DNA of 64,000 nucleotides from Zygnema cylindricum (Eukaryota; Streptophyta; Zygnematophyceae; Zygnematales; Zygnemataceae). Both the position numbers and the translations under genes were made by a program. Shown here in pieces: positions 4,129 to 60,651 of this stretch (position 1 is its first letter; each line of letters begins with the position of its first letter). Under the pieces are notes generated by a model. It saw only the letters and a program-made list of their open reading frames with translations. It ran no database searches and was not told where the DNA came from. The stretch covers positions 62,001 to 126,000 of the forward strand of contig JBBHKE010003045.1 of the NCBI GenBank assembly GCA_037447655.1. The letters run 5' to 3'.

Positions 4129-5177
4129 TGTTGAAATAAGTAGTTTTGAGTATATTTTCTAGGTCTAAATTTATTAGAAAACAGGAAAAGAAAATGAAGG
4201 CAGCCTGCCTCTATCTCTTCTCTCTCTCTCGCCCCCATACTTGTTGTAGTCACTGAAGGAGAGAGAGAGAGCAATGGAGCCATGGCTGCCTCAACTCCAT
4301 AGGAAGGACTAAAGAGTGGCTTAAGCCACTCTCAACAAAAGGTTGAGTCCGGCAGGACTCGAACCCCAGACTGGTAGAGCGCGGCGTAGACGTTAGCTCT
4401 AACCAGTCTGTCGTAGAAGTCCGTTAGGAGATATAGGGTTTCATTTTTATTTAAACTATTGTAATGTACTAGATTCATTTAACTGAAACTCTTCACGCCA
4501 CGCATAGATACAGTTCTACAAAGTACGAAGTACTGTACTTGTTTGAAATGGATATCGCGCATTTTGTTTCGACAGCGAAACAAATATCGCGCAAGTATTT
4601 ATTACGGCCAAGATTGAATTTCGCGTCAAATCTAACGCCGCACATCATCGCCAAAATCCCGGAATGGTCATTTTGGCATTTAGTTACGTGGCATGACTTG
4701 GCGCCATGTGGGAAGACATCATTCGGTCGCGGGAATTCCGAGGAACGTACGGACGAGTGGAAAGTGGACACGCGTCCACTTAATGGCCTTGTCGTACAGA
4801 GGCCGTACAGAAAGTACATCGGCAGTATTACTTTCTAGTACTATACAGTTTTGTGATTGGTTCGTACAGGCAGTAGATAGGAGCTGTGAGAGGGAATTAG
4901 GAAAAACTAGGACTTAGGAAAATTAAGGTAGATAGTCCTCTCTCTCTGAGAGTTTGTATAAATTGGCATCTTTGCCACCCTATAACTTATCGGCTGGTTG
5001 GCTGTTTTCAGTGATTCTTTTTGTTACGGACTCATGGGAGTCCAGGCTGCACAGGGGTGCAGTCAAATTGTTAGTTTGCCTTCTTGGGAAGAAGTGGTCG
5101 TGGCTTAAGGTGGGTTAGTTAAACACTATCTAGAGGCTTCCTGTATTCTGTAGTCCAATGGAGGACACATAATTGCA
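4129..5177 (+). repeat. 5' LTR of copia element A
   Basis: The repeat carries an antisense tRNA-like module (4,345-4,423). A likely TATA box, GTATAAATTGGC, lies near 4,957, just behind a CTCTCTCTCTGAGAG hairpin. The same TATA position is seen in the related solo LTR (TGTATAAATATG near 33,899). Gag translation would start at ATG 5,158 in the LTR, but this copy has TAA at 5,170-5,172 where the 3' LTR still has GAA. Confidence 0.9.
4345..4423 (-). other. tRNA-like module in the 5' LTR of element A (antisense)
   Basis: On the minus strand, CAGACTGGTTAGAGC matches a tRNA D-arm/A-box and GGGGTTCGAGTCC matches a T-arm/B-box. They are spaced as in a tRNA with a normal anticodon arm between. The arms do not fold perfectly. 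It lies in U3 on the strand opposite to the element. Confidence 0.55.
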
Positions 5178-8100
5178 GGTTATGGGCCAACCCTCTAGGG
5201 TGCCCACCTTCAATGGATCTGGGTTCATCTATTGGGAAGCCATGATGTTGGGAGCTTTGTGTGAAAAACGATACTGGGGTATCGTCAGTGGACAAGTGAA
5301 ACATCCACCTTCGTGAACTCCACCAGGATTTGGGGGAGTAAGGTTTTCTGCAACAACGGCTGCCTCAGCCGAGGAGGCAGATGATGGGGACAGCAGTGTG
5401 TCTGCAAAGGGGAAAGGGAAAGAGACACCCCTCACTCCTATTGCCACAGTATCGGGAGCGGCGACCGTGAAGACCGTGGAGAACGATACTCAAATGTGGG
5501 AGGATGTAAACATGGCTGCCAAGAACTTCATTCTGAGGCACCTCACTCAAGGTTTGGCCACTCCTCATCTTCACATTTACAAGGCGGAGGAGTTGTGGGA
5601 GAGTTTAGTGGAGATTTATAAAGCTGGAACTATTCAGGAGCTCCAGTTGGCTGAGCAAAAGCTATTGAGTTACAGTAACAAAGGAGGAAAGATGTTAGAT
5701 TACTGTAATGATTTTTCTTATTTGTATATGGAAATGGAAAGTGGCGGGTGGACAGGTACAATGAAAATGAAAGTTAACACCCTTATCATAAAATTACCAG
5801 ATGAGTTCGAAAACATAGTGTACCGAGTACAAGGAATGCCTGATAGTTCATGGAAATGGAACACAGTAGTCAGGATGATACTTGTGCAGGAAAACACAAT
5901 GGAGATTAGGAGAGGAGGAAAGAGCATTCAAGCTCTAGCAGCAGGAGGGGACCGATGGGGGAAGGACCCGAAGAAACCTTATAGAGGGGAAAGAGATATT
6001 TCTGGGGGACAGAGGCCCGCAAAGGGTCTTTGTCATTATTGCAAAAAGCCGGGACACTTTATTGCAGATTGTGTCAAGCTATCAGAGCTGAGGCTCCAAG
6101 AGAACCGTGGAGGAGGTTCTTCCGGAGGGAAGAAAAAGGCACTTGTGGTAACAAAAGTGTCACGAGAAACCAAGGATGAGTCATCAGAGGAGGATGGGGA
6201 ACTTCTTCTTGACGAGAGTCTGGAGGAGAAAGAGATCCCTCGGAGGCAAAAGTGTGCCCTTGGAGCAATTCAGGAAGCTCCACAGGAAGGATGGATCATC
6301 GACTCAGGCGCATCCATGCATATGTGTCGTGATAAAGAACTCTTCACTAAGCTAAGAAAAATTCCTACTGTAGAGATAGAGTATGGGGATGGGAGAGTGG
6401 TTACAACAGATCTAGTGGGATCAGTAGATCTGAAAGTCTTAGTGGAGGGTAAGACTTCTAGACTTACATTCTCAGATGTACTTTACATTCCTCAGCTGAG
6501 TAAAAATCTTGTCTCTACGTCTGTGTTAGATGACAAAGAATTTGATACTTTCACTAGAAAAGGAGTCTTTACAGCTAAGTATGGGAATGAAGTTTACTTC
6601 ACAGCAGATAAGGGTAGCCAAGGAATGTTTAGGCTTAACCTGAGTAATGAAAAGAAGAATGCTTATTATGTTGGTGTTCCTAAGGTGATGATTTGGCATA
6701 AGCGGTTGGGGCATGTGCATTTTGATAGGTTGAGGGAAATGAAAAAGCTTGGGGTAGTAGATGGCATTCAGTTTGAGGATAATGAAATGATGGATGATTG
6801 TAGTGGTTGTGCTCAAGGTAAGGCTCACAGACTTCCCTTTCCTAAAGCCGCCACATATAGAGGTGAGAAAGTGTTAGATTTGGTCCACACAGATATTTGG
6901 GGACCTGCAAAAGTACCTTCGGTTGGAGGAAAGAGGTATATGATGACAATAACTGATGACTGGTCTAGATACTCTAGAGTCTACTTTCTGAAAACAAAGT
7001 CTGAAGCATCAACTTACTTCAAAGAATATAAAGCTTAGAGTGAGAAGTTGCATGAAACCCCCATTAAGAGGATAAAGAGTGATAATGGGGGGGAATATAC
7101 CTCTAACGAGTTTGAGGAATATCTGAGAGATGAGGGAGTGCAGCACCAAAAAACTGTACCATATAACCCGGAACAAAATGGGGTAGCTGAGAGGTTGAAT
7201 CGAACACTAGGAGATAGTGTGCGCAGTATGTTGGCAGACAAGAAAATATGAAAGAGATTTTGGGCAGAAGCAATGAACTGTGCCAACTACATTAAGAACA
7301 GAGTCCTTACCTCAGCTGTAAAGGGAATGACACCTTATGAGAGATGGGTTGGAAGGAAACCAGATATCTCACACCTTAAAGTATTTGGTAGCCAAGTTTA
7401 CAGTCTTGACACGGATAGGAAAAATTGGAAACTAGATGCTAAGGGAAAACCTGGATACTTTGTGGGATATGATGAGGATGTTTAGGGATATAGAGTCTAT
7501 GACTTAGCAAAGAAAGATATCATTTTGGTCAAACACTTAGTTGTCATGGATGAAGGGAAGTCATTTGACCCCTTCAAATATACAAAGAAGATAAGGATCA
7601 GATTTGAGTCCGAAAGTGAGGAGAACTCGGTCGTTCCCGAAAAAGACATGAGTGAAACCGTGATTACAGATTCAGGGGAGATCAAAGATACAGGAGACTC
7701 ACCGGAAACCTCACATACTCCTATGGACTTCGAGGAGATAGAAGAAGCAGGACAAGATACGGTTTTTATGGACAGGGGAGCCGATGAGACAGTGAGAAGA
7801 AATCCAAGACTTCCATCCATTCCAGCTTCGGAGTTTGAGGGAGGAAGGAGGAGCAGCAAAAGGATACAGGAAAAACAAGCTGCCCATAAGGTAACTAAGC
7901 TATCTCACCCAGATGAGCCTCAGTCTTACTTAGAGGCAGTGATTAGTCCAGAGAAAGAAAGATGGATTAGAGCCATAAATGATGAGATGGCTTCTATCAT
8001 GGAAGCAAATACTTGGGAACTAGGGGATTGCCCTCCAGACAGAAAACCTATTGGATGTAAATGGGTATTTAAACTAAAACTGAACCCAGATAATACAATT

Positions 8101-9507
8101 GAGAGGTATAAGGCTCGATGGGTAGCGAAGGGGTTCACCCAAAAAGAGGGGATTGACTATGAGGAGACCTTTGCTCCAGTTGTTCGGTTCCCATCGGTAA
8201 GGATTCTCCTCAGTCTGGCCGCAGCGGAAGACATGGAAATACACCAGATGGACATTAAGACTGCTTTTCTTAATGGTGAGTAAGAGGAAGAAATTTTTAT
8301 GAGGAAACCCGAGGGGTTTGTGGAAGAACGAGAAGAGAGCAAAGTTTGCAGGCTCATAAAGTCCTTATATGGACTGAAACAGGCTCCCCGACAGTGGAAT
8401 AAGAAACTAGATGAGTTTCTCACCGATCTGGGATACATCCGGATCAGCTCTGACCATTCTATCTATATGTTTGAAGATGGGAATTGTGTCATTTTTATTG
8501 CAATTTATGTGGATGATCTGCTTCTGTTAAGTAAGTCTTTGGAGAATATCAATAGGCTAAAGAAAGATCTTAGGGGCGGACTTGATATGAAGGATTTAGG
8601 GGAGGCAAAATATATTTTGGGGATCCAAATGGAGAGAGATAGGGGGAAGAAGATTATCAGACTTACTCAGAAAGAAGCAATAGGTAATATGCTTGAGAAA
8701 TTCCAGATGGAAAATGCTAACAGTTGTACCACTCCCATGGACTTGAAAAAAGTAAGTGATGGGAGTGTAAAAGGAGGAGTGATGATCTTAGACGATCAGA
8801 TGAGTCCAGAGGAGAGAGAGTTCATGAAGTCTATCCCTTATAGACAGGTCGTAGGAAGCTTAATCTATTTTATGAATTGTACCAGGCCGGACATAGCGGC
8901 AGCAGTTGGTGTACTCAGTAGGAGTCTTAATGATCCTAGGAAGAGGGATTGGGAGGCAGCCAAGAGAGTCATGAGATATCTGGTGGGAACTAGAGAGTTA
9001 TGGTTGCATTTGGGAGGGGAGCACACTGACATCACTACTTGGAGTGATGCCAGTTATGGGGACGCACCTATGAGACGATGCACTTCTGGGTATGTGTTGT
9101 ATGTTGGGGAAGGTGCTTGCTGTTGGAGCAGTAAGCAACAAAAGGTGGTTGCTCAGTCCACTATGGAGGTTGAGTACATGGCCTCTTGTTCTGCTGTGAA
9201 AGAGTTGATGTGGGTCAAGTCTTTACTGCAAGAACTGGGGTATATGAAAGAGGGAGTGCATGAAGTTTTTTGTGATAATTAAGCGGCCATAGCAATTGCA
9301 GCCAATCCAAAACATCATTTTAAGGCTAAACATATGGACATAAGATTAAGTTTTTTAAGAGAAAAAGTGGAGAATAAAATAGTGAATCTTGTATATAGAT
9401 CTGATAAGGAAATGGTGGTTGACATGATGACAAAACCTGTGCCCTCTCCAAAGTTAAAATATTGTAGGGAAAAATGTGGCTTAAAAGAAAAATTAAAATT
9501 AGACTAG
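5158..9507 (+). pseudogene. Element A: gag-pol polyprotein, six internal stops and no frameshift
   Basis: A single frame runs from the primer-site ATG (5,182), with an LTR start at 5,158, to TAG at 9,505. Domains in order: Gag; CCHC knuckle CHYCKKPGHFIADC near 6,031; protease WIIDSGASMHMC near 6,292; integrase with an HHCC part (HKRLGHVH...CSGC) and the D,D,E core (HTDIWGP, SDNGGEYTS, PEQNGVAERLNRT); RT with YVDDLLLL near 8,507; RNase H (WSDASYGD, near 9,041). Catalytic residues look intact. Stops lie at 5,314 (TGA), 7,036 (TAG), 7,249 (TGA), 7,483 (TAG), 8,281 (TAA) and 9,280 (TAA), plus the LTR TAA at 5,170. All pieces stay in the same frame. As it stands the copy cannot make Pol. Confidence 0.92.
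5178..5189 (+). promoter_or_regulatory. Primer-binding site of element A (half-tRNA type)
   Basis: GGTTATGGGCCA directly follows the LTR. Eleven bases match the complement of the initiator tRNA-Met anticodon arm; the twelfth is A instead of C. The ATG at 5,182 inside it is in frame with gag. Confidence 0.75.
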
Positions 9508-9520
9508 AAAATAAGGGGAG
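9508..9520 (+). promoter_or_regulatory. Polypurine tract of element A
   Basis: AAAATAAGGGGAG sits directly before the 3' LTR. This is the normal place for the plus-strand primer. Confidence 0.85.
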
Positions 9521-10571
9521 TGTTGAAATAAGTAGTTTTGAGTATATTTTCTAGGTCTAAATTTATTAGAAAACAGGAAAAGAAAATGAAGGCAGCCTGC
9601 CTCTATCTCTTCTCTCTCTCTCGCCCCCATACTTGTTGTAGTCACTGAAGGAGAGAGAGAGAGAGCAATGGAGCCATGGCTGCCTCAACTCCATAGGAAG
9701 GACTAAAGAGTGGCTTAAGCCACTCTCAACAAAAGGTTGAGTCCGGCAAGACTCGAACCCCAGACCGGCAGAGGGCGGCGTAGCCGTTAGCTCTAACCAG
9801 TCTGTCGTAGAAGTCCGTTTGGAGATATAGGGTTTCATTTTTATTTAAACTATTGTAATGTACTAGATTCATTTAACTGAAACTCTTCACGCCACGCATA
9901 GATACAGTTCTACAAAGTACGAAGTACTGTACTTGTTTGAAATGGATATCGCGCATTTTGTTTCGACAGCGAAACAAATATCGCGCAAGTATTTATTACG
10001 GCCAAGATTGAATTTCGCGTCAAATCTAACGGCGCACATCATCGCCGAAATCCCGGAATGGTCATTTTGGCATTTAGTTACGTGGCATGACTTGGCGCCA
10101 CGTGAGAAGACATCATTCGGTCGCGGGAATTCCGAGGAACGTACGGACGAGTGGAAAGTGGACACGCGTCCACTTAATGGCCTTGTCGTACAGAGGCCGT
10201 ACAGAAAGTACATCGGCAGTATTACTTTCTAGTACTATACAGTTTTGTGATTGGTTCGTACAGGCAGTAGATAGGAGCTGTGAGAGGGAATTAGGAAAAA
10301 CTAGGGTTTAGGATAATTTAGGTAGATAATCCTCTCTCTCTGAGAGTTTGTATAAATTGGCATCTTTGCCACCCTATAACTTATCGGCTGGTTGGCCGTT
10401 TTCAGTGATTCTTTTTGCTACGAACTCAGGGGAGTCCAGGCTGCACAAAGGTGCAGTCAAATTGTCAGTTTGCTTTCTTCAGAAGAAGTGGTCGTGGCTT
10501 AAAGTGGGTTAGTTAAACACTATCTAGAGGCTTCCTGTATTCTGTAGTCCAATGGAGGACACAGAATTGCA
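9521..10571 (+). repeat. 3' LTR of copia element A
   Basis: This pairs with 4,129-5,177. It differs by roughly thirty substitutions and a 2-base change in a GA run. The tRNA-like module is kept at 9,739-9,817 (minus strand). Here the in-LTR gag start reads ATG-GAG-GAC-ACA-GAA, without the stop seen in the 5' copy. Confidence 0.92.
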
Positions 10572-14970: not shown

Positions 14971-15072
14971 TGTTGGATTGGCACGTGAAGCCGGTCCAAT
15001 ACGGGGTAGAATATAATATCCATACTCGAGCCGCCCGTAATAAATGGGTACGGACCCGCCAGTCTCTACATC

Positions 15073-15143
15073 GAGCTGGTGGCACAGTGGTAGTGCGTTC
15101 GCAGCTGCAGTAAAAGGTCCCAGGTTTGAACCCTGGCCGGCTC
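15073..15143 (+). other. tRNA-like module in the first TRIM LTR
   Basis: The 71 bases fold as a tRNA: a 7-bp acceptor (GAGCTGG with CCGGCTC), a D-arm GCAC-AGTGGTA-GTGC, and a T-arm CCAGG-TTTGAAC-CCTGG. A and B boxes are in place. The middle part resembles tRNA-Cys (CTGCAG, AAGGTC) but the anticodon stem is weak and position 33 is not T. Confidence 0.7.
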
Positions 15144-15357
15144 AATTTTTCCAAGTATGGGACATGCCGAATCCCAGATTTCTAGGAAATCTAACATGGT
15201 ATCAGAGCCAGCAGGAAAACGGATGGTTTGACCGGCTTTCCCGTGAGGGGGGGTGTTGGATTGGCACGTGAAGCCGGTCCAATACGGGGTAGAATATAGA
15301 ATATCCATACTCGAGCCGCCTGTAATAAATGGGTACGGACCCGCCAGTCTCTACATC

Positions 15358-15428
15358 GAGCTGGTGGCACAGTGGTAGTGCGTTCGCAGCTGAAGTGAAA
15401 GGTCCCACGTTCGAACCCTAGCCGGCTC
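15358..15428 (+). other. tRNA-like module in the second TRIM LTR
   Basis: Same fold as 15,073-15,143. Here the anticodon stem pairs TTCGC with GTGAA. The T-arm has mismatches (CCACG/CCTAG). The B box GTTCGAACC is intact. Confidence 0.68.
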
Positions 15429-15484
15429 AATTTTCCCAAGTATGGGACATGCCGAATCCCGGATTTCTAGGAAATCTAACATGG

Positions 15485-36760: not shown

Positions 36761-36945
36761 GAGGTGGGAAACAGAAAAGACTAGCTAAAAGTCCTCAGTA
36801 GAGTCGACGAGATCCAGACATTAAAGAGTTAACTCTGGAGGGCAAGCTAATGAATGGAAAGGCTATGATAGCTGAATTTATTATAATGCTATCTACACTC
36901 CATAGTTTGAACAATCCTTTTGATAAAAATCTTAAAAACGGGCCT

Positions 36946-37173
36946 TGTTGGATTGGCACGTGAAGCCGGTCCAATACAGGGTAGAATATGGATTATCCAT
37001 ACTCGAGCCGCCTATAATAAATGGGTACGGACCCGCCAAGCTCTACATCGAGTTGGTGGCACAGTGGTAGTGCATTCACAGCTGAAGTGAAAGGTCCCAG
37101 GTTCGAACCCTGGCCGGCTCAATTTTCCCAAGTGTGGGACATGTCGAATCCCGGATTTCTAGGAAATCTAACA
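36946..37173 (+). mobile_element. TRIM solo LTR with tRNA-like module
   Basis: A 228-bp copy of the TRIM LTR (see 14,971) starts TGTTGGATTGG and ends AAATCTAACA. A perfect 5-bp duplication GGCCT lies at 36,941-36,945 and 37,174-37,178. It inserted between Gag and protease of element C, so the family moved as an LTR element. Confidence 0.92.
37050..37120 (+). other. tRNA-like module in the TRIM solo LTR
   Basis: Acceptor GAGTTGG/CCGGCTC, D-arm GCAC...GTGC, anticodon stem TTCAC/GTGAA and T-arm CCAGG-TTCGAAC-CCTGG all pair. The best-preserved T-arm of the three TRIM copies is here. Confidence 0.72.
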
Positions 37174-37224
37174 GGCCTATGTTAGAATAGTTAAAAAAAG
37201 ATGACACCAGACACAATTTGATCA

Positions 37225-37725: not shown

Positions 37726-38532
37726 TGTTGTTCTACAACCACCGGTGCAGGTGAAGGAGCAGCAGTAGTAGTAGAAGTAGACATGATACACTCTCAGAAG
37801 ATATCAAGAATCCTACCAACCAGCTGTTCTTAAGTGCTCACCAATTCTTATACAAGCATCCAAACCTCACAAAACTCTATCAAAATATAGAGTAGCATAA
37901 ACACAGACAACTCCCAAAGTTTCAGCTTAATTGACCCAACAACACTCAAGATATAATACTCAGAAGTTTCCCAAAAACTATCTGCAGTTTTACTACTTGG
38001 AAGTTTGGATACATAAAAATGCTCCAAGTCCTAAGTCTTATACTTTCGGTGTTCTACCGCCGATAACAGTGTACCTGAGAGGTACGTCCAAAATCAACCC
38101 ACCTACTGAGATCTACGTGTCCTTGATCGTGCCAACCCAATCTATCATTGTACAGTCAATATTACCCAGAATCTAGATTAAGTGTTTGTACAAATACTTG
38201 TCGGCTAAGTCACTTGTGATACTCTTATGAATCTCGTCCGTTGACTAGATTCATATCAATCGCAGCTGCGTTGTCCCGTACCGGATCACATTTACATCAC
38301 CCGCGGCTGCGGTGTCCTGCACCGAATCATATCCAAGATAGTAGCAGCTGCGTTGTCCGTACGGATCTTATCCAAAGTAACCGCAGCTGCGTTTGTCCTG
38401 TCTGTGTCGCAGTTTGGCAGCTGCGCTGCTCTGCTGCTGCGCTGCTCTTCCGTATAGCAGCTGCGCTGCTGTCTGTATAGTTGCTGCGCTGCTGCGCTGC
38501 TCTGAGACTGAAAGCTTTCCAAAAAGACAACA
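37726..38532 (-). repeat. 3' LTR of copia element B
   Basis: Nearly identical to 42,777-43,607. The U3 part (38,260-38,520) contains repeated CAGCTGCG palindromes at about 40-base spacing and a GCTGCGCTGCTC run whose copy number differs from the other LTR. The gag start codons (ATG at 37,784 on the minus strand) are present here too. Confidence 0.9.
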
Positions 38533-38547
38533 CTCCCCTAAAGCTTT
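38533..38547 (-). promoter_or_regulatory. Polypurine tract of element B
   Basis: The minus strand reads AAAGCTTTAGGGGAG directly before TGTTGTC of the 3' LTR. Confidence 0.75.
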
Positions 38548-38618
38548 AGAATCAGTATATCAGCGCAGCTGCGGTGATAAACTAGCGCAGTATCGCAGCA
38601 TAGCAGTATAGCAATTAG

Positions 38619-41600
38619 CTATTCACTTAATCCCACTGCTTCCCTACAATACTTCAGCTTAGGAGCAGGAATAGCTTTAGTGAGCATATCAGCAATCATT
38701 TTTGCATCTGGTAAGTAACATAATTTAATCACTCTAGAGAACACTTTTTCTCTTACAAAGTGTAATAGTACATCCATGTGCTTTCTTTTGAAGTGATGAA
38801 TCGGGTTAGAAGCAATGGCAATGGCAGCCTGGTTATCACACCAGATCACCTGTGGACCAACTTGCATGTTTCCTAGTTCTTCTAACATGGATTTTACCCA
38901 TAAGAGTTCTTTGAGGGCAGAGCTTGCTGCCATATATTCCGACTCCATTGTCGACTGTGCTGTCACCTTTTGAAGTTTGCTGCTCCTGAAGCAAGTACCG
39001 TTCCCAACTTGTAGAACGAATCCCGTGGTAGATTTCCGGCTTGGCATGTCGCCATAGCTTGCATCACTCCATGTTTGCAGCTTGACTCTTCCTCCGCCTA
39101 GAGTGAGTTTGAGATCTTTAGTTCCTGCCAAATATCTTAAGACTCTCTTTGCTGCATCCAGATCTGATTTTCTCGGATTTTCTAGACTCCTACTCAGTAC
39201 CCCGACTGATGCACCAATGTCAAGACGGGTACAGTTCATGAAATATATTAAGCTTCCCACTATCTGTCTATAAGGTATTATTGCCATAAGATCATTCTCC
39301 CCTGATTCTAAATACTCGCTAACAATGACACCTGGTTCTCTCTCTTCTCCCTCTAACTTCTGCTGAAACTCCATTGGAGTTAAACATCCTTTTGCCCCCC
39401 GCATTCCGTACTCATCTAACATGTTTCCAATTGCCTCTTTTTGAGTCAATTTTATTATTTTCTTATTTCTGTCCCTCTCTACCTGGATACCCAAAATATA
39501 TTTTGCCTCACCGAGGTCTTTCATCTCGAACCGTGAGTTTAGAGCAGTTTTGATTTTGTTAATTTCAGCCATTGATTTGCTAATTAATAGCAAATCATCT
39601 ACATATACCGCTATATACATTATCCAATTTTCACCCTTTAGAACGTTGACAGAGTGATCAGAACTTATCCTTTGAAATCCTAGACTAGTCAGGAATTCAT
39701 CAAGCTTTATATTCCACTGTCTCGGGGCCTGTTTTAGGCCGTACAAAGATTTTAGCAACTTGCATACTAAGTGCTCTTTTCCTGGTTCCACATACTTTTC
39801 AGGCTGCTGCATGTAAATGGTCTCTTCTAGTTCTCCATGCAAAAAGGCCGTTTTTACATCCATCTGATGAATTTCCATATCTTCTATAGCAGCTAGGGAC
39901 AGCAAAATCCTAACTGTTGGAAATCTTACAACCGGAGAAAATGTTTCTTCAAAATCGATTCCTTCCTTTTGATTGTACCCCTTTGCCACAAGTCAGGCCT
40001 TATAGCGTTCAATGGTGTTATCGTGATTTAACTTCACCTTGAATACCCATTTGCTGTCGATCGCTTTTCGGTCTGGAGGAAGGTCCACGAGCTCCCATGT
40101 TTGAGCCTCCATGATCGACTTCATTTCGTCGTTTGCCGCCTCAATCCAGTGATTCCGCTCTGGTGTTGAGAAGGCCTCTTGGATGGTCAAGGGCTCCCCT
40201 GAGACTGCCGAGTAGGCAAAGTGAGAGCTTGCTTGCAGGCGACTGCTTGATCTTCTTCCCCCGGAAATTCTGAGGCTGAGATCGTCGGATGCCGCGCATT
40301 GCGCTGATTGCGCTGGTTGCGATCCGTGTCTTGCTGATTGCGCTGGTTTCGATCCGTGTGTTCGTGATTGCGCTGGTTGTGATCCGTGTGTATTGACTGA
40401 TCTTGGTCTGTCTGGACCCGAAGTTGGTGAGGAAGTTGGAGAGAGTCTGTTTCCGGAGTCATTACCAGAGTTTGTGGAATCTGCGGGACAATTTCCTGCA
40501 TGCAATCTAAGATGACATTCTCCTGTACTTTTTGTTGCTTTTGCTGCTTTGTCATGTGAAATAAATCTATGGAGTCTAGTTCATCCTTAACAATGATGTT
40601 TCTAGCTACAACTATTTTCTGTCTTTCAAACACAAAGACTCTATAACCTTTCGAGTGATCATCATATCCTAACAGAATACCCGGTAATCCCTTCGGTTCC
40701 ATTTTCCATCTATCTGTAGACGTATCCAATATAAAGCATTGACTACCAAAGACCTTGAAATGGCTAACATCTGGTTTGCTACCTGTCCAGATTTTGTAAG
40801 GAGTTGTTTCTACCGATCTTGATCCTATCCTATTTTTAATATAAACTGCACAATTTAGAGCCTCAGCCCAGAATTTCCGATCCACATTTTTATCTGCGAG
40901 CATAGATCTAGAGTTTTCCGTGAGAGTGTTATTCAGTCTTTCCGACACCCCATTTTGTTCCGGTGAATATGGAACAGTCAATAGATGACTAATGCCTTCC
41001 TCGAGTAAAAAGGTTTCAAACTCTTTTGATGTATATTCACCACCATTGTCCGATCTGAGCTGCAAACTAGATGAATTATGAAGTTTTTCAGCCCATGCTT
41101 TATAGTGTTTGAAGTGACCAAACACTTCACTCTTCTCCTTCATGAAGTAAACTTTTGTAAACCTTGAGAAATCATCTGTGAAGGTGACCATATATTTCAT
41201 CCCTCCGGCAGATTGAACCTTCGCCGGACCAAAGACATCCGAATGAATTTGTTGTAAAAGTTTCGTCGACCGATGCTCAGACTCCTTAGGAAATGGCAAT
41301 CTGTGGATTTTGCCTAAAGCGCAACCATCGCAAGTTTTGACCGGCCCATCTGTGATTGATACACCCCCTATCATTCCAGCAACAACCATTTTCTTCAAAC
41401 TATCATAGTTGACATGGCCTAATCTTTTATGCCACAACTCATCTGAGTGCAAAACACCGGAGTACAAAACATCATTTTCTTTTGTATTAGCCATATCCAT
41501 GCGATACATCTTGCTACTATCTTTAGTACCTGTAACTGCAACCTTGCCGTTTTTGCTAACAACCTGCCGACCGTTTTTCAAACTAACTTCAAAGCCTTTA

Positions 41601-42835
41601 CTCTCAACCAACGACGTAGAAAACAGATTTTTCTTAAAGTCAGGCACAAATAAGACATTGTGAAGAGTCCTTTCAATTGCTTTTCCATCCACATCAACTA
41701 GCAAGGACACATCACCCATTGCACGAGTTTGGACACTCATTCCACAAGCATAATAAATATTTTTCTCTGGCGTTGCTTTCAGATTTTTGAAGATGGCCTT
41801 GTTCGAACACATATGCGCTGATGCTTATGTATCCATAATCCATCCACGGTCCTTTGCGCCTTCCATTGCTGCCGCCATAGCGAATAGATCCGTGTCGTCC
41901 TCCTCAAAAAATGTCAGAGTTTCGTCTTGGAGTGATGAAGAAGCTGAAAACAGTGCATTTCCACGAGGTGTAGGCCTCGTGAAGCTTTTGTAAAACTGAC
42001 TTTGTTGCCATCCCTGCCTGTATAAACCGGAATCGTTAGCTTGTTTAAGTTTAGGACAGAATTTGTATCCATGACCTCTCTCACTACAATAAAAACATGC
42101 ATTGTTTGATTTTCTATTTCCCCCCAGATTAAACTGTCTGAATTGGGTAAACTGATTACTTTGCTGATTAAATTGGCCTTTCTTTCCAAATTCTGAATTA
42201 AAAGCCTCTACTTGCTCAACATTGAGGATGTTAGATGTAGCTTCCTCCTCTAATAAAATATTGATCGCTAACTGTAAAGTCCAGCTAGCTTTATCTTTCT
42301 GTTTGAGCATGTCAGATGCTCCTTTCATACTACGAGGGAGACCCCGCATGAGCAATGCTGCCTGTTGAAACTGAGGAAACACCCCACCGGCACAAGCATG
42401 TGCATCTACAAAAATACGAAATTTGTTAGAATATTCAGCCTTTGTACCGCCAGTGTACTTATAGTCCCAAATTTTTCCAGCCAATAGAAGTTCTTCCTGA
42501 ACATTAGCCTTTTCATAATCACTTTTAATGGATTTCCAGATATCAATTGCTTTTTTCATTTTTATCCGAGACATAGCTAAGTCATCAGATATACAAAATT
42601 TCAAAATAGAACGAACGTGCGTATTTTTCTTAGACCATGACGGATCAGATTCATCCAAAGAACCATCCAATATATCCAAAAGATTGACATTTTCAAAATG
42701 TGTCTCCACCATATCCGCCCAGTAAACATACTTATCCCCGGAAAAGATAGGAATTCTTGATGACAGGCCCATAACATGTTGTTCTACAACCACCGGTGCA
42801 GGTGAAGGAGCAGCAGTAGTAGTAGAAGTAGACAT
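38619..42835 (-). pseudogene. Element B: gag-pol polyprotein with two stops and one frameshift
   Basis: It starts at ATG 42,835 inside the 5' LTR (MSTSTTTAAPSPAPVVVEQ), runs through the primer site as VMG, and continues with Gag, knuckle CFYCSERGHGYKFC near 42,095, and protease WIMDT-stop-ASAHMC near 41,828. The stop TAA replaces the Gly codon of D-T-G. The integrase has an HHCC part and the core motifs SDVFGP, SDNGGEYTS and PEQNGVSERLNNT. A frameshift in a G-run near 40,260 separates integrase from RT. TGA at 39,990-39,992 stands where element A has CGA (Arg). RT carries YVDDLLLI near 39,605; RNase H has WSDASYGD near 39,065 and ends at 38,619. Catalytic residues are otherwise kept. Confidence 0.92.
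42763..42776 (-). promoter_or_regulatory. Primer-binding site of element B (half-tRNA type)
   Basis: The minus strand reads TGTTATGGGCCTGT after the LTR. TTATGGGCC matches the complement of the initiator tRNA-Met anticodon arm, as in A and E. It is coding, giving V-M-G-L. Confidence 0.65.
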
Positions 42836-43607
42836 GATACACTCTCAGAAGCTATCAAGAATCCTACCAACCAGTTGTTCTTAAGTGCTCACCAATTCTT
42901 ATACAAGCATCCAAACCTCACAAAACTCTATCAGAATATAGAGTAGCATAAACACTGACAACTCCCAAAGTTTCAGCACAATTGACCCAACAACACTCAA
43001 GATATAATACTCAGAAGTTTCCCAAAAACTGTCTGCAGTTTTACTACTTGGAAGTTTGGATACATAAAAATGCTCTAAGTCCTAAGTCTTATACTTTCGG
43101 TGTTCTACCGCCGATAATAGTGTACTTGAGAGGTACGTCCAAAATCAACCCACCTACTGAGATCTACGTGTCCTTGATCGTGCCAACCCAATCTATCATT
43201 GTACAGTCAATATTACTCAAAATCTAGATTAAGTGTTTGTACAAATACTTGTCGGCTAAGTCACTTGTGATACTCTTATGAATCTCGTCCGTTGACTAGA
43301 TTCATATCAATCGCAGCTGCGTTGTCCCGTACCGGATCACATTTACATCACCCGCGGCTGCGGTGTCCTGCACCGAATCATATCCAAGATAGTAGCAGCT
43401 GCGTTGTCCGTACGGATCTTATCCAAAGTAACCGCAGCTGCGTTTGTCCTGTCTGTATCGCAGCTTCGCAGCTGCGCTGCTCTGCTGCTGCGCTGCTGCG
43501 CAGCTCTGCTGTATAGCAGCTGCGCTGCTCTTCCGTATAGCAGCTGCGCTGCTGTCTGTATAGTTGCTGCGCTGCTCTGAGACTGAAAGCTTTCCAAAAA
43601 GACAACA
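42777..43607 (-). repeat. 5' LTR of copia element B
   Basis: Partner of 37,726-38,532. It contains the first 19 codons of gag (42,777-42,835). The U3 with CAGCTGCG repeats lies at 43,310-43,590. The GCTGCG run is longer than in the other LTR. Confidence 0.9.
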
Positions 43608-56524: not shown

Positions 56525-56608
56525 GTCAGGGTGGCCGAGTGGTCTAAGCCGCCAGACTCAAGTTCTGGTCCTCGTTAGAGGGCAGGGGTTCGAACCCCCT
56601 TCCTGACA
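56525..56608 (+). tRNA. tRNA-Leu(CAA), copy 1
   Basis: An 84-base type II tRNA without intron. The acceptor GTCAGGG pairs with TCCTGAC; the anticodon loop CTCAAGT gives anticodon CAA; the long variable arm is TCCTCGTTAGAGGG; the T-arm is GGGGG-TTCGAAC-CCCCT. It differs from copies 2 and 3 by C for G in the D-arm (TAAGCCG), which may weaken pairing. CCA is not encoded. A CAA lies just upstream, as in many plant tRNA genes. Confidence 0.93.
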
Positions 56609-58023: not shown

Positions 58024-58107
58024 GTCAGGGTGGCCGAGTGGTCTAAGGCGCCAGACTCAAGTTCTGGTCCTCGTTAGAGGGCAGGGGTTCGAACCCCCTT
58101 CCTGACA
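58024..58107 (+). tRNA. tRNA-Leu(CAA), copy 2
   Basis: Same as copy 1 but with the standard D-arm GGCGCC. All arms pair. A T-run for Pol III termination lies about 30 bases downstream (near 58,139). Confidence 0.95.
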
Positions 58108-60567: not shown

Positions 60568-60651
60568 GTCAGGGTGGCCGAGTGGTCTAAGGCGCCAGAC
60601 TCAAGTTCTGGTCCTCGTTAGAGGGCAGGGGTTCGAACCCCCTTCCTGACA
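60568..60651 (+). tRNA. tRNA-Leu(CAA), copy 3
   Basis: Identical to copy 2 over the tRNA. It is preceded by TATATATCTATATATATAAATGG (60,534-60,556), an A/T-rich upstream region of the kind common before plant Pol III genes. TTTT occurs about 25 bases behind. Confidence 0.95.

Follow-up and report, generated by a model that had tools for sequence, protein, structure and literature searches.

The window analysed here, 64,000 nucleotides of Zygnema cylindricum DNA, contains a 511-base TRIM at positions 14,971–15,481 of the forward strand. It consists of a left LTR of 226 bp (14,971–15,196) with the ends TGTTGG...CTAACA, an inner part of 57 bp (15,197–15,253), and a right LTR of 228 bp (15,254–15,481) that is 95.7% identical to the left one. 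The inner part opens with the primer-binding site TGGTATCAGAGC (15,197–15,208), which we take to match the plant initiator tRNA-Met, and closes with the polypurine tract GAGGGGGGG (15,245–15,253), in agreement with an earlier note on this DNA. No closed open reading frame of at least 150 aa overlaps the element. No exact target-site duplication surrounds the full element, and the bases TGG, the first three of the primer site, stand directly 3' of its right LTR; the element may be what is left of a longer array. A solo LTR of the same family lies on the same strand at 36,946–37,173, and the exact GGCCT copies on its two sides (36,941–36,945 and 37,174–37,178) mark it as an LTR-type insertion, as the earlier note had concluded.

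Each of the three LTRs carries on its sense strand a tRNA-like unit, recognised in the earlier note and called by ARAGORN in all three cases, with a length of 72 nt and an offset of 102, 104, and 104 bases from the LTR start. The unit of the left LTR (15,073–15,144) is called Gln(ctg), is decayed, and scores below the Rfam cut-off; a run of five T resembling a Pol III terminator follows directly 3' (15,146–15,150). That of the right LTR (15,358–15,429) has 19 of 21 stem pairs in standard form and is likewise decayed and under the cut-off. It is preceded by a TATA-like AATAAA (15,324–15,329, identified by eye, 34 bases upstream) and followed by TTTT (15,431–15,434). Among the three, only the unit of the solo LTR (37,050–37,121) passes the Rfam tRNA cut-off of 29 bits (RF00005, 53.0 bits); all 21 of its cloverleaf pairs are standard, and minimum-energy folding of the unit yields the cloverleaf. 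The TATA-like sequence TATAATAAA (37,013–37,021) lies 34–37 bases upstream, and two inverted repeats lie on the other side, TCCCA/TGGGA 3' of the unit (37,126–37,139) and GATTTC/GAAATC ahead of the LTR end (37,154–37,168). Both repeats are absent from the minimum-energy fold of the post-unit part of this copy.

Retrozymes are defined by a hammerhead ribozyme in the LTR; no ribozyme family reached the Rfam gathering score in the window. tRNA alone was found at Rfam gathering scores there, and 5S rRNA sequence, the trait of Cassandra, was not. TRIMs with a tRNA-derived sequence in their LTRs have been named Helenus by Kojima 2024 (PMC10886601), with Selaginella moellendorffii as the one plant listed. 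According to that paper, Helenus elements are mostly shorter than 1 kb, bear the tRNA-derived sequence with boxes A and B in both LTRs, have a primer-binding site and a polypurine tract, produce 5-bp duplications in plants (also in fungi), occur as several families per genome and as solo LTRs, and form tandem arrays, there noted in zebrafish; the present element resembles them in all of these respects. With its 511 non-coding bp, tRNA-like sequence in three of three window LTRs, primer-binding site and polypurine tract, 5-bp duplications at 62 of 106 blocks (see below), and boxes A and B kept between families, it is a Helenus-type TRIM, a kind already published, placed here by its described features. 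The dimensions differ from those given for the Selaginella family, with an LTR of 120 bp and an inner part of 85 bp there and LTRs of 222–247 bp and inner parts of 57–66 bp here (PMC10886601). The proposal of the earlier note that this is a tRNA-type counterpart of Cassandra was correct as to the counterpart, but a name for it already existed (PMC10886601).

To place the window copies in the genome, we searched 353 Mb in 2,689 contigs with sequence patterns at up to three mismatches, alongside controls. The first 30 bases of the LTR matched 501 places (controls 0) and the first 30 bases of the unit 610 (controls 0), while the LTR start of a second family, B, matched 101 (controls 0) and the 5' half of the unit of a third, C, matched 157 (control 1). 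As 501 and 101 together come close to 610, free units of the family A or B type are not present in large numbers, although this tally is rough because A2, a relative of the window family A, has an insertion within the patterned stretch. ARAGORN kept its tRNA call in 125 of the 135 full LTRs of our first samples, a set from which 30 partial LTR hits were excluded. It did so in 41 of the 50 full LTRs of a 5'-end sample, composed of 40 regions taken in list order from the first 100 of the 501 LTR-start matches. The earlier note had proposed a family of TRIMs whose LTRs hold a tRNA-like unit; this is thereby confirmed, and the opposite case that the note had envisaged, with most copies lacking the unit, does not describe these data. 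An insertion of the unit in one lineage only is likewise ruled out, since A, A2, B, and C each carry it.

Among the fetched loci we recognised 106 complete blocks, comprising 47 solo LTRs, 53 blocks with two LTRs, three with three, two with four, and one with five. Exact 5-bp duplications flank 62 of them (24/47 solo, 33/53 two-LTR, 3/3 three-LTR, 1/2 four-LTR, and the single five-LTR block), which indicates LTR-type insertion and places the arrays inside single duplications. tRNA-derived SINEs have a tRNA-like head with boxes A and B and are devoid of LTRs, primer-binding site, and polypurine tract. Such an identity is ruled out here by the LTR ends, the primer-binding site, the polypurine tract, and the fixed 5-bp duplications; the element also differs from SINEs in that unit counts show no large excess over LTR counts (610 vs. 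501 + 101). At one locus (L040:478–1435, minus strand) four LTRs stand in a row at steps of 243–246 bases and adjoin an inverted LTR, with spacers of 17 bases in place of the 57-base inner part. Several copies are truncated at the 5' end, six of them near the unit, at LTR positions 100 (L033), 104 (L038), 105 (L031), 106 (L040), 113 (L081), and 116 (L063), and others at positions 8, 29, 94, 143, and 168. We did not count these truncations as evidence for the start of an R region, as queries with the unit had brought up some of the copies, and L040 and L046 have undergone rearrangement.

Cassandra resembles the element in forming arrays in which LTR and inner part repeat in tandem, and it also has a small-RNA gene in its LTR, there 5S rRNA sequence in place of the tRNA-like sequence seen here (PMC7215508, PMC10853983). 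Arrays and recombination have been reported in the same sources, and the primer-binding string TGGTATCAGAGC is common to both elements, having been used to find Cassandra in PMC7215508. Arrays of at least three LTRs are likewise shared with the tandemly arrayed TRIMs of Gao 2016 (PMC4717578), whose main text is without the word tRNA, in contrast to the tRNA-like unit in the LTRs described here. In a paper on ant TRIMs (PMC3532108), tRNA is mentioned as a primer.

Families B (LTR 222, inner part 66) and C (LTR 247, inner part 61) have the primer-binding site and polypurine tract in the style of family A; A and C each have a sister family, A2 and C3 respectively. A TATA-like box, the unit, hairpins, the LTR end, and the primer-binding site succeed one another in A, B, C, and the sisters alike, and boxes A and B are both legible by eye in the commonest units of A, A2, B, C, and C3. 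Identities before, in, and after the unit, each calculated from single real copies, are 0.86/0.88/0.83 for A and A2, 0.83/0.93/0.84 for C and C3, 0.58/0.96/0.56 for A and B (0.94 in the unit when another A copy is compared with B), and 0.53/0.65/0.46 for A and C. The flanks of A and B are more alike than shuffled sequence (0.46 ± 0.03 before and 0.44 ± 0.04 after the unit). For A and C this applies before the unit (shuffles 0.45 ± 0.02) and not after it (0.44 ± 0.03), and for B and C the flanks lie 1–2 s.d. above shuffled sequence. From these comparisons with shuffles, families A, B, and C are probably distant kin whose LTRs have strongly diverged. The unit nevertheless recurs at the same place in all of them.

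This constancy of position bears on whether the unit could be a passive passenger, a tRNA or SINE inserted long ago into an ancestral LTR and carried along without function. Decay within family A would suit such a history. Over the 135 LTRs, differences per cell amount to 0.0186 before, 0.0200 in, and 0.0211 after the unit, so that unit and flanks decay at the same pace. Among the 15 LTRs with the most decay, which include one chimera (L043) and one deletion (L037), the unit has changed more than its flanks (0.0898 vs. 0.0628 before and 0.0731 after). The earlier note had named faster decay of the boxes as a sign of chance insertion, and these 15 copies lean that way. Boxes A and B, which that note had expected to be conserved above the LTR background, did not stand out among 218 windows of 11 bases. 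In the 5'-end sample of 50 LTRs, whose selection by exact match to the first 30 LTR bases favours the pre-unit part in decay comparisons, box A ranked 89th and box B ranked 158th; over all 135 LTRs the ranks were 46th and 107th. Neither these ranks nor the decay of the unit relative to its flanks shows the boxes to be preserved above background in dead copies. A unit that decays like the rest of the LTR is, however, roughly what should be seen in dead copies. We consider the passenger explanation quite improbable, given that the unit occupies the same place on strongly diverged LTRs and that the change from A to A2, described below, preserved every base pair, whereas dead copies break about half of the pairs that they change.

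Evidence concerning transcription comes from the surroundings of the unit. A TATA-like box, defined by a motif list of our own choice without a chance control, occurs 30–37 bases upstream of the unit in the examined A, A2, B, C, and C3 copies, in C only as GTAAAT. On the 3' side, two perfect inverted repeats of 5–7 bp occupy matching places in A, B, and C; at least two such repeats arose in 9/500 and 13/500 shuffles of two A copies, 3/500 of B, and 12/500 of C. A2 retains the second repeat and a 4-bp version of the first in its fold, and C3 only the first as a perfect repeat. The post-unit part folds into two hairpins in B, C, C3, and A2; the solo A copy of the window prefers a fold without both. 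This layout of TATA-like box, cloverleaf, and hairpins suggests an RNA that would begin at the cloverleaf and continue through the two hairpins to the primer site.

In Kojima 2024 (PMC10886601), the tRNA-derived sequence of Helenus is treated as a likely Pol III promoter, and Pol III transcription is proposed, not shown. On that precedent (TRIMp3 in PMC10886601), with a similar description for Cassandra, the unit could be a Pol III promoter and nothing else, with Pol III starting at the unit of the left LTR and transcribing the whole element. The box motifs themselves would serve this purpose; among the 50 full LTRs in the 5'-end sample, 48 contain TRGYNNANNNG and 37 contain GGTTCRANNC. Family B would even permit read-through, with no run of four T in the 510 bases of the examined element and none between unit and LTR end in 12 of 15 full B LTRs, the scorable ones. 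Family A is different in this respect, because TTTT stands directly 3' of the unit in 80 of 82 LTRs, where Pol III starting at the unit would be expected to terminate; end-to-end Pol III transcription of a family A element is accordingly doubtful on its sequence. TTTT also occurs just 3' of the unit in the folded A2 and C3 copies and 11 bases 3' of it in the C copy. Furthermore, TATA-like boxes would be expected for Pol II as well, and the two-sided changes of the anticodon stem fall outside boxes A and B. A role as Pol III promoter alone is in our view unlikely. We favour a genomic RNA that is started by the TATA-like box and carries the cloverleaf at its 5' end; Pol III transcription of the LTR, as suggested in the earlier note, may occur beside it.

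The comparison of A with A2, one real copy each, indicates that the fold itself is kept. Eight substitutions separate the two units, five of them in the anticodon stem, and none breaks a pair: UA became CG and CG became GC, both two-sided changes, GU became AU, and one pair of the T stem went from CG to UG. In a post hoc simulation with uniform random placement, at least two two-sided pairs with none broken were obtained in a fraction of 0.00019 of 200,000 trials. By comparison, 162 copies of A and B contain 105 pairs changed from their own family form, of which 54 are broken, 47 kept with a one-sided change, and 4 kept with a two-sided change. As two pairs of the anticodon stem were replaced by other pairs and no pair was lost, the cloverleaf fold seems to be selected, beyond boxes A and B.

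An alignment of 25 units of A, A2, and B is consistent with this reading. Its cells are paired to 95.2%, and the covariation score of 0.151, which relatedness of the sequences inflates, compares with 0.104 in 500 shuffles, none of which attains the observed value, and with at most 0.059 in six slides of the alignment; pairing is also above shuffles and slides. Three pairs show two-sided change, which is not above shuffles (226/500), and the two-sided cells stem from few historical events. From these 25 units RNAalifold reproduced the D stem, the anticodon stem, and the greater part of the acceptor stem, but no T stem. Fold energies of five units are unremarkable (z of −0.8 to −2.0), and the minimum-energy fold of one A2 copy (L139) differs from the cloverleaf. 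Intermediates changed on one side are present, one with a wobble pair (L145) and two with a mismatch (L151, L152), favouring stepwise change. Part of the anticodon-stem change could itself have been acquired by exchange. Between A and C the units have two-sided differences at nine pairs, with one pair broken in C, and these differences may reflect two tRNA ancestors.

A cloverleaf under selection might also be a working tRNA gene, the units then supplying real tRNA. ARAGORN names an anticodon, and one A copy and one B copy have 21 of 21 pairs in standard form. Base 33 is G or C in the examined copies, so that none has U33 and the unit is not a usable tRNA, a property that a passive passenger would share. 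Small loop changes turn related units into Gln, Lys, Pyl, or Glu, and the best match to host tRNA is 0.67–0.68. None of 18 host sequences (17 genes in the fetched loci and one tRNA-Leu of the window, seven isotypes) exceeded 0.68, and a host tRNA ancestor was not accepted among them. Kojima 2024 (PMC10886601) saw no support for tRNA function in the predicted folds of Helenus, apart from a few families of fungi and bivalves. Taken as a whole, we find the supply of functional tRNA barely credible as the role of these units.

Exchange between families is indicated by the same identities. The A–A2 comparison shows that the unit is not slow to change, so the 96% unit identity of A and B on backbones of 56–58% points to transfer of the unit between these families. 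Chimeric LTR copies, moreover, have junctions inside the unit. The left LTR at L043 (164–394) is of family A with a foreign patch covering approximately the 5' half of a C-type unit and ending near the anticodon loop. In L112 and L113, counted as one event because the 5' flank is common to both, a C LTR changes to B sequence within the unit and is followed by a B inner part, a B LTR, a C inner part, and a C LTR. L113 has GGGAG on both sides, though in a GGGA-rich flank, and L112 is without exact duplication. In L175 and L101 a C LTR is joined to a B inner part and B LTR, L175 again without exact duplication. Judged from sequence comparison, the family set lends moderate support both to a role of the RNA fold and to the swapping of units.

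Overall, we think it rather probable that this is a Helenus-type TRIM whose LTR cloverleaf is both a selected fold and a shared exchange site, beside being a tRNA-type promoter. Being a non-coding LTR retrotransposon of only about 0.5 kb, it would owe its movement to enzymes supplied by a full-length LTR element, presumably Copia in view of the 5-bp duplications and the primer-binding site. No autonomous partner was found among the long LTR pairs of the window, where the TRIM LTR matched by BLAST only its own three copies. RNA would start at or just upstream of the unit, positioned by the TATA-like box 30–37 bases before it, and the cloverleaf would form the folded 5' end both of the element RNA and of its repeated R region. 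Two tasks might then fall to the unit, one in keeping a tRNA-type promoter and another in which the fold serves the RNA itself through stability, processing, or packaging. Being the part that the families share best, it could also act as a switch point for reverse transcriptase or for recombination between families, and switching within it would account for the chimeras and for units that are almost identical although their LTR backbones have strongly diverged. A more far-reaching version is offered tentatively, and in its full extent it is somewhat improbable: the cloverleaf would be a selected, exchangeable RNA module at a 5' end composed of cloverleaf, hairpin 1, hairpin 2, and primer site, a tRNA mimic acting after transcription that, as R region, directs strand transfer, so that diverged families trade units and form chimeric LTRs.

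Kojima 2024 (PMC10886601) reads the tRNA-derived sequence as a promoter, whereas the present families add fold-keeping two-sided change and the exchange of units; among the titles listed in searches of open-licence papers, none concerned either process between Helenus families. To the one plant species of PMC10886601 is added a green-plant genome in which several TRIM families with tRNA-like sequence coexist. Seven matches to the SBP domain, which is specific to plants, on four of its contigs, against none in 14 control prokaryotes, agree with a green plant. Such a set makes it testable whether a captured small-RNA gene in an LTR is a Pol III promoter alone or whether its RNA fold matters, since the families have had time to drift and yet can still be aligned, which renders both fold-keeping change and exchange measurable. 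For annotation, it serves as a warning that many predicted tRNA genes in a genome of this kind are pieces of retrotransposons.

The window also holds two long elements with Copia-like open reading frames (identified by eye), one at 4,129–10,571 with LTRs of about 1.05 kb that are 97% alike and one at 37,726–43,607 with LTRs of 0.8 kb that are 94.6% alike; BLAST found no match of the TRIM LTR in either. Three tRNA-Leu(CAA) genes lie 1.5–2.5 kb apart at 56,525–56,608, 58,024–58,107, and 60,568–60,651, the first two of them (56,525 and 58,024) within repeats some 150 bp long with 84% identity.
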